Below are positions 3,197-5,244 of a stretch of DNA of 64,000 nt, piece by piece (the stretch's first letter is position 1; each line of letters starts with the position of its first letter). Location of the stretch: the NCBI GenBank assembly GCA_018902545.1, contig JAHIQM010000008.1:1-64000 (forward strand), in the 5' to 3' direction. The DNA is from Pseudomonadota bacterium (lineage in GTDB: Bacteria; Desulfobacterota; Desulfovibrionia; Desulfovibrionales; Desulfomicrobiaceae). The notes under the pieces were generated by a model. That model did no database searches. It was not told the origin of the DNA and was given only the letters and a program-made list of their open reading frames with translations. The position numbers were made by a program, and so were the translations under genes.

Positions 3197-3400
3197 TCAG
3201 CCTTTTACCCGTTTGATGGTCCCATTGCTCAGCATTTGTTGAAACTGGGACAACAATTCCTTTTCCTCTTTGTCAATATGACCATCATCGTGAGCGCAAT
3301 CCATGATCTTATTATACTCTTCAGGTGTTACTTCCAGATCTTGAATGGCATGATTGATAAGTTCTTTAAGATTTGACGCTGACTTGCTTGGCTTCATCAT
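3197..3400 (-). CDS. Small acidic protein with an EF-hand-like or TerB-like segment, unknown function
   Basis: A 67-residue soluble protein with a strong ribosome binding site (AAGGAG, nine bases before ATG). Residues around 36-45 read DDGHIDKEE. This resembles the DxDG.I...E core of an EF-hand loop, though the first ligand position is Cys instead of Asp; TerB-like helical proteins carry a similar DG-hydrophobic-D pattern. It lies 120 bases upstream of the P2-type ATPase on the same strand. A metal-binding role is only a suggestion. Confidence 0.7.
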   Translation of the reverse strand: MMKPSKSASNLKELINHAIQDLEVTPEEYNKIMDCAHDDGHIDKEEKELLSQFQQMLSNGTIKRVKG

Positions 3401-4856: not shown

Positions 4857-4888
4857 GGGGCCTCCTGTGGTTGGCTGGAGGTCCTTTT

Positions 4889-4932
4889 TAAAAAAAAAAG
4901 ACCTCCAGCATGGGTTATCATGCTGAAGGTCT
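4889..4932 (-). terminator. Riboswitch expression platform: intrinsic terminator
   Basis: On the minus strand AGACCTTCAGCATG pairs with CATGCTGGAGGTCT around a 6-base loop and is followed by about 11 Ts. The 5' arm includes CCTTCA, which is also the 3' strand of aptamer helix P1. A second downstream copy, GACCTCCAGC (4874-4883), can pair with GCTGGAGGTC and would break this terminator. Confidence 0.8.
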
Positions 4933-5017
4933 GGCTCATCGGTGGGTTCCGACGGCAAGACCAAGCGCTTTCGCGCCGAGATTGTTGATCTTGCCTTTGG
5001 GAGTTACTCCCCTTCAA
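4923..5017 (-). promoter_or_regulatory. yybP-ykoY-type manganese riboswitch aptamer
   Basis: Read on the minus strand, the leader has TGAAGG (P1), the loop motif GGGGAGTAAC, the second loop motif GATCAACAATC, the stem GGCAAGA/TCTTGCC, a small hairpin around AACCCA, and the closing TGAGCCAGACCTTCA. These are the conserved parts of the yybP-ykoY Mn2+ riboswitch as I know it. P1 formation (TGAAGG with CCTTCA) is mutually exclusive with the terminator, predicting that Mn2+ switches the downstream genes on. A covariance-model search was not possible here. Confidence 0.78.
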
Positions 5018-5022
5018 ATATA

Positions 5023-5052
5023 TCTATAGTTTCCGATACGCCTACTTGTCAA
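5023..5052 (-). promoter_or_regulatory. Sigma70 promoter for the riboswitch leader
   Basis: Perfect -35 TTGACA and -10 TATAGA, separated by 18 bases. The predicted start of transcription falls at or just before the first base of aptamer helix P1, which supports both assignments. Confidence 0.75.
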
Positions 5053-5244
5053 GAGCGATTCTGCAAGCGCTCAGGCATCCGCATCATTCCAAGCTGAAGC
5101 AGGTTTGCGATAGAAGCTGGAATCCTTTACTTTTTACGTGATTGGGCTTGGGAAAAGGGATTTGTCTATGTGCTGCGGCATGAGGGCTCGCCGATTTCGG
5201 GACGAGGCATGATTCGTCAAAAACGTCGCTCTTCAACGCCCCCT

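Follow-up and report, generated by a model that had tools for sequence, protein, structure and literature searches.

A probable Mn2+-responsive riboswitch of P2-less yybP-ykoY form ahead of a chimeric reading frame in the Desulfovibrionales

Leader position, promoter and overall assignment

The leader described here is very probably a Mn2+-responsive ON riboswitch of a P2-less yybP-ykoY form, which arose as a recent duplicate of the leader of a tim44-like operon on contig C3 of the same genome. It lies in the window (the whole stretch of 64,000 nucleotides that was analysed, positions 1 to 64,000 of contig JAHIQM010000008.1), on the minus strand from 5016 to 4854, ahead of a 98-codon open reading frame. 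Comparison with related leaders supports the aptamer fold, the mutual exclusivity of its helix P1.1 and an intrinsic terminator, its conservation, and its linkage to genes for Mn exporters. The original prediction of a manganese riboswitch at this place, made from the letters alone, is partly supported: it appears to be right in kind, and it needs correction on the form of the aptamer (P2-less and below the Rfam cut-off), on the role of a third arm behind the terminator and on the nature of the gene.

All the parts named in that prediction were located in the sequence. The promoter TTGACA-N18-TATAGA, for which no strand had been given, is on the minus strand, with the -35 element TTGACA at 5052-5047 and, after an 18-nt spacer, the -10 element TATAGA at 5028-5023; a TTGAC hexamer is found upstream of nearly all related leaders. 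TATAGA is directly followed by UGAAGGGGAGUAACUCCC, and the transcript start predicted from the sequence, at about 5016, is the first base of P1. The fold of the 150-nt RNA has a z-score of -7.9 against dinucleotide shuffles, with none of 200 shuffles equalling it.

Architecture of the aptamer

The aptamer occupies positions 5016 to 4925 of the minus strand, as supported by its score of 145.9 bits against our covariance model R1, by covariation in 39 leaders and by the alignment of a sister leader to RF00080. According to the alignment it consists of P1.1 (5015-5011/4929-4925), the loop L1 GGGGAGUA (5012-5005), P1.2 (5004-5001/4937-4934), a five-nucleotide linker that replaces P2 (5000-4996), P3.1 (4995-4989/4960-4954), L3 (4988-4977), P3.2 (4976-4973/4968-4965) and P4 (4953-4949/4942-4938). 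In the 39 distinct leaders, 97-100% of the pairs in P1.1, P1.2, P3.1 and P4 are standard ones, 12 pairs have changed on both sides, and the covariation score is 0.226 as against 0.115 for shuffled alignments and at most 0.106 for controls with slid partners. Conservation with covariation across these 39 relatives shows that the aptamer is not a chance fold.

L1 is invariant in 39/39 leaders, the window included, and carries the class motif GGGGAGUA(G), while the L3 motif UCANCA is invariant in the leader alignment. An SRL-like motif in L1, an adenosine in L3 and a P1.1 stabilised by Mn are features of the class, and L1 and L3 are the two loops that form the Mn2+ site in the solved aptamers (PMC6754395). 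The adenosine after AC in L3, A4983 in the window, presumably corresponds to A41/A48 of those structures (PMC6754395) and would be the one that senses Mn2+. In L3, the window copy and its parental copy have CAACAAUCUC in place of the CAACAAUACU that prevails in the genus; the deviation lies in the bases after the putative Mn-sensing adenosine and is absent from the rest of the 39 aligned leaders. The first pair of P1.2, A5004-C4934, is mismatched in the same two copies. The altered L3 and the A-C mismatch could weaken binding.

The P2 helix and the four-way junction of the solved structures are not present in the window aptamer, the account of the known P2 being taken from PMC6754395 and the Rfam alignment. 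With P2 missing, the junction is three-way rather than four-way. When the sister leader L055 is aligned to RF00080, the alignment covers its whole length and passes over the P2 hairpin. The window copy thus belongs to a P2-less branch of the class, in which the four-way junction is lost as well.

Class assignment and distribution

The gathering cut-off of RF00080 (yybP-ykoY / Manganese riboswitch) is 45 bits, and the window copy reaches 10.6 bits over 4878-5013 in a search at E <= 10; at the gathering thresholds, Rfam returned two tRNAs only across the window. By the Rfam threshold, then, the window leader is not an RF00080 member. NsiR1, ctRNA_p42d and the other Rfam matches at this place stayed below threshold and were rejected as chance similarity to the terminator, with which they share a hairpin and the T residues behind it. 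The missing RF00080 hit was by itself half of what the original prediction had named as its refutation, so the identity of the element was established otherwise, by a covariance model of its own.

This model, R1, was built from 17 related leaders of sister genomes. It finds three copies in the genome of the window, with 145.9, 145.1 and 140.5 bits; besides the window copy these are C3:164769 (98% identical over 365 bases) and C3:127838 (85%, leader only). Within the order, R1 matched 105 of 348 genomes, from 21 of 59 genera, at E <= 0.001; in a phylum-wide sample it matched 32 of 395 at E <= 1e-4, other families included. A fourth, very divergent Mn-type leader with a terminator (L137, G000:C21:33870-34023), which has the motifs GGGGAGUAGC ... 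GAUAAGCCAGACCUUU and precedes a gene for an HtpX-type M48 protease on C21, scores 30.4 bits with R1; compared with Rfam, it gave no match.

Sister leaders score 25-34 bits against RF00080 (E 2e-6 to 2e-5), all below the cut-off, and other relatives in the order that retain P2 ('CUGGGUUCUUGAAACCCGGG') score up to 39. Since leaders of the same family reach 25-34 bits, the failed check on the window copy is due to the model and not to absence of the element, and its low score is in large part attributable to the loss of P2. By homology, loops, helices, expression platform and the targets of its relatives, the leader belongs to what appears to be a divergent branch of yybP-ykoY and is predicted to work likewise. 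The yybP-ykoY-type aptamer of the original prediction was thus the right class in kind, although it lacks P2 and stays far under the cut-off.

Terminator, third arm and Shine-Dalgarno sequence

For ease of description, the segments are named A (the 5' strand of P1.1), B and C (the two terminator arms), D (the third arm) and E (the Shine-Dalgarno sequence). The intrinsic terminator, a stem of 14 pairs at 4932-4899 that is kept in relatives, is the strongest of the first 5.3 kb of the window. Its 5' arm (4931-4919) shares bases with the 3' strand of P1.1, its 3' arm is at 4912-4900, and the T run behind it (4899-4890) counts 10 T rather than the 11 first reported, with 8 T in the parental copy. 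CCUUC is used by both P1.1 and the terminator, just as predicted, and the pairings A:B and B:C are mutually exclusive. The ON-switch logic proposed at the outset, P1 against an intrinsic terminator over a single strand, is upheld, and the same exclusion is the mechanism shown for Lactococcus lactis (PMC11087558). In the window, CCUUC would be captured by the terminator hairpin when Mn2+ is lacking, and transcription would stop at the T run; Mn2+ bound between L1 and L3 would hold P1.1, block the terminator and let RNA polymerase read through.

The third arm, GACCTCCAGC, is located at 4883-4874 and is complementary both to the terminator 3' arm, as had been noticed before, and to the Shine-Dalgarno sequence GGAGG at 4865-4861. 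It lies downstream of the T run and has no part in termination; a role as antiterminator is excluded, as the arm is transcribed only after the T run. Its pairing with the Shine-Dalgarno sequence makes control of the ribosome-binding site in the read-through RNA the more likely role. D is present in 42 of the 56 leaders analysed, usually as the complement of C and co-changing with it. With the terminator formed, the Shine-Dalgarno sequence is predicted to pair with D at a probability of 0.90 and to be 4% open in the 42 leaders that have the arm, and to be paired at 0.25 and 26% open in the 14 leaders without it. RNA that leaks past a formed terminator (B:C) would then be silenced by D (CCUCC) masking E, while in the Mn-bound state C, free of B, would take D before E is made and the ribosome site would stay open. 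When P1 is forced at equilibrium, the Shine-Dalgarno sequence is freed in only 10/42 of the third-arm leaders (from 0.00 to 0.39 in the window) and D:E is still favoured in most sister leaders. A kinetic order of pairing would therefore be needed, and the translational layer is kept here as a conjecture, one that we regard as finely balanced.

The strongest competitor to a translational layer is a switch of the same RNA class acting on transcription only, where the hairpin of the third arm and the freed terminator arm stabilises the read-through mRNA or hides a decoy Shine-Dalgarno sequence, and where the complementarity of D and E is a by-product of the chain GAAGG-CCUUC-GGAGG-CCUCC. The C:D pairing is statistically the stronger of the two (261 pairs against 247.7 in shuffles, p = 0.0006, as compared with p = 0.04 for D:E, in shuffle tests that ignore the kinship of the leaders), most leaders keep D:E in the P1-forced folds, and many sister leaders ahead of Na/Ca exchangers do without any third arm, all of which fits control of transcription alone. 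Against this, C has drifted to GGAAG or GGAUG in L100, L102, L107, L118, L119 and L019 while D is still CCUCC, which matches E perfectly and C imperfectly, so that the Shine-Dalgarno match was retained despite the changed terminator arm, and the Shine-Dalgarno sequence is masked in nearly all third-arm leaders once the terminator has formed. We give this explanation somewhat less than an even chance.

Origin of the window copy and the genes behind it

The protein of 98 residues behind the leader had been taken for a target outside the classic ones, and this reading is refuted: the reading frame (4856-4560, minus strand, ATG at 4856-4854) is chimeric, a truncated Tim44-like gene joined to the tail of a DUF533 gene. 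Its codons 1-69 (4856-4652) are tim44-like, and the residues they encode share 96% identity with the start of an intact Tim44-like protein of 303 aa (C3:164929). The final ~29 codons (4649-4565) come from the 3' end of a DUF533 gene, and the last ~28 residues share 89% identity with the C-terminus of a DUF533 protein encoded at C3:137170. Over 5016-4652 the window DNA corresponds to the parental copy at C3:164769, and the 126-nt aptamer-terminator segment is identical in the two copies except for the length of the T run, which indicates that the duplication is recent. In relatives, this leader precedes the intact tim44-like gene, often with terC behind it. Taken together, the leader of the C3 tim44-like operon appears to have been copied recently to the window locus, with 69 codons carried along, and repeated leaders may serve as sites of recombination. 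The Tim44-like/DUF533 fusion is in frame and stands right behind the duplicated riboswitch.

Several further observations concern the surroundings of these loci. The non-coding stretch upstream of the leader (window 5060-5198) is 74% identical to G000:C3:158910-159057. A descent of the window promoter from a leader like that of genome G006 was considered and rejected (similarity z = 4.0, yet 3.8 for an unrelated leader), and blastn against plasmids gave no match. In the C3 tim44 operon, the CorC/CBS gene at L024 (6054-6713) is 5'-truncated in comparison with the full copy at L047 (7626-8957), a further sign of rearrangement between loci of the Mn regulon.

Next to the chimera lies a membrane ORF of 173 aa (4422-3901, minus strand), which belongs to a family with a member of 195 aa at L129. 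Its homologue in G006, a sister species, is the first gene directly after a leader of the same Mn type and is followed by CorC/CNNM and Na_Ca_ex genes, with the same P-type ATPase nearby; from this arrangement the window would be a rearranged locus of the Mn regulon into which a leader and a gene end were copied. An exporter-type cation P-type ATPase (3127-320, minus strand) lies 1.7 kb beyond the chimeric first ORF, as a possible distal gene of the unit, and between the leader unit and this gene no strong terminator was found on the minus strand. A 67-aa ORF ahead of the ATPase gene (window 3197-3400) shows weak similarity to DUF533 (E 0.087). The switch now stands ahead of the 173-aa ORF and perhaps also of the ATPase gene, and control of the latter is possible by analogy, because in Streptococcus a Mn riboswitch governs a Mn2+/Ca2+ ATPase (Martin 2019, cited in PMC10550928).

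The window copy might instead be a dead duplicate, a piece of DNA left over when repeated leaders recombined and lacking a functional gene downstream. Its first ORF consists of two fused gene ends, an intact parental operon exists elsewhere in the genome, and the copy is too young for selection to be readable; nevertheless, promoter, aptamer, terminator, ribosome-binding site and ORF are each intact, and the next ORF, of 173 aa, has a leader of the same type ahead of it in G006. We consider a dead copy unlikely.

Target genes of related leaders and the ligand

Among 57 related leaders examined, the first gene mostly encodes a Tim44-like protein (PF04280), a Na_Ca_ex antiporter (PF01699) or TerC (PF03741), and there are several leader-tim44-terC operons and one leader-tim44-htpX-terC operon. 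Outside the order, all eight matches that were opened lie directly ahead of genes for UPF0016 (five) or Na_Ca_ex (three) proteins, these families being named from the sequences and their homologues in the order, and UPF0016 by its doubled EMGDKTQL motif. TerC and UPF0016 are established Mn2+ exporters under yybP-ykoY control, terC being a classic target. It is mainly because of these target genes of the relatives that we infer Mn2+ to be the ligand of the window copy. TerC was ruled out as a target in the genome of the window, which has no TerC gene. HtpX/M48 protease genes occur in or beside leader-tim44-terC and leader-tim44-antiporter clusters (L102, L024), and these neighbourhoods suggest that Mn switches may control membrane-protein quality control; a search of the accessible literature for Tim44-like proteins together with manganese found nothing.

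A shift of the P2-less form to another divalent ion (Ca2+, Cd2+ or Fe2+), proposed because this form often controls genes of the Na/Ca-exchanger type, is very improbable: many targets are indeed Na_Ca_ex antiporters, L3 of the window copy deviates and Cd2+ too promotes docking of a canonical aptamer (PMC6754395), but the P2-less leaders also stand ahead of genes for the established Mn exporters TerC and UPF0016, neither L1 nor the Mn-sensing adenosine varies, and the canonical switch itself has a predicted target of the Na/Ca-exchanger kind, yrbG in Vibrio vulnificus (PMC13274385).

Comparison with known systems

The window leader resembles the RF00080 class in L1 GGGGAGUA, the Mn-sensing A of L3, the helices P1.1, P1.2, P3 and P4, a terminator sharing the 3' strand of P1.1, and relatives that stand before Mn-exporter genes. 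It is unlike the class in its sub-cut-off score, the lack of P2 with a three-way junction, the altered L3 and the extra third arm behind the terminator. The solved aptamers of L. lactis yoaB and Xanthomonas oryzae yebN (PMC6754395, PMC11087558) are ON switches alike, and the L. lactis one also opposes P1.1 to a terminator; both differ in having four-way junctions and no described arm behind the T run. What is new here, judged by sequence comparison, is the P2-less, lineage-specific variant, the class itself being already known.

Combining these features, we tentatively propose a three-way-junction Mn switch across the Desulfovibrionales and related bacteria, in which a relay of five segments (P1 strand, terminator 5' arm, terminator 3' arm, third arm and Shine-Dalgarno sequence) would let one Mn2+-binding event set both termination and ribosome access, a proposal with the balance rather against it. 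The Escherichia coli mntP and alx leaders, governed through translation and Rho (PMC11647493), are alike in that control extends beyond transcription. They are not known to have an intrinsic-terminator relay of this kind.

Biological significance

The Rfam threshold appears to hide a large branch of Mn switches, of which about 30% of the genomes in the order carry one. From the P2-less form it could be read which part of the four-way-junction paperclip an aptamer can do without, and the form would offer a smaller natural aptamer. With these leaders, Tim44-like and HtpX-type membrane proteins encoded in operons with TerC would also join the Mn regulon. In line with this, HtpX and Sec components were co-precipitated with TerC in Bacillus subtilis (PMC10550928), and a link between Mn and membrane-protein quality control thereby becomes testable.
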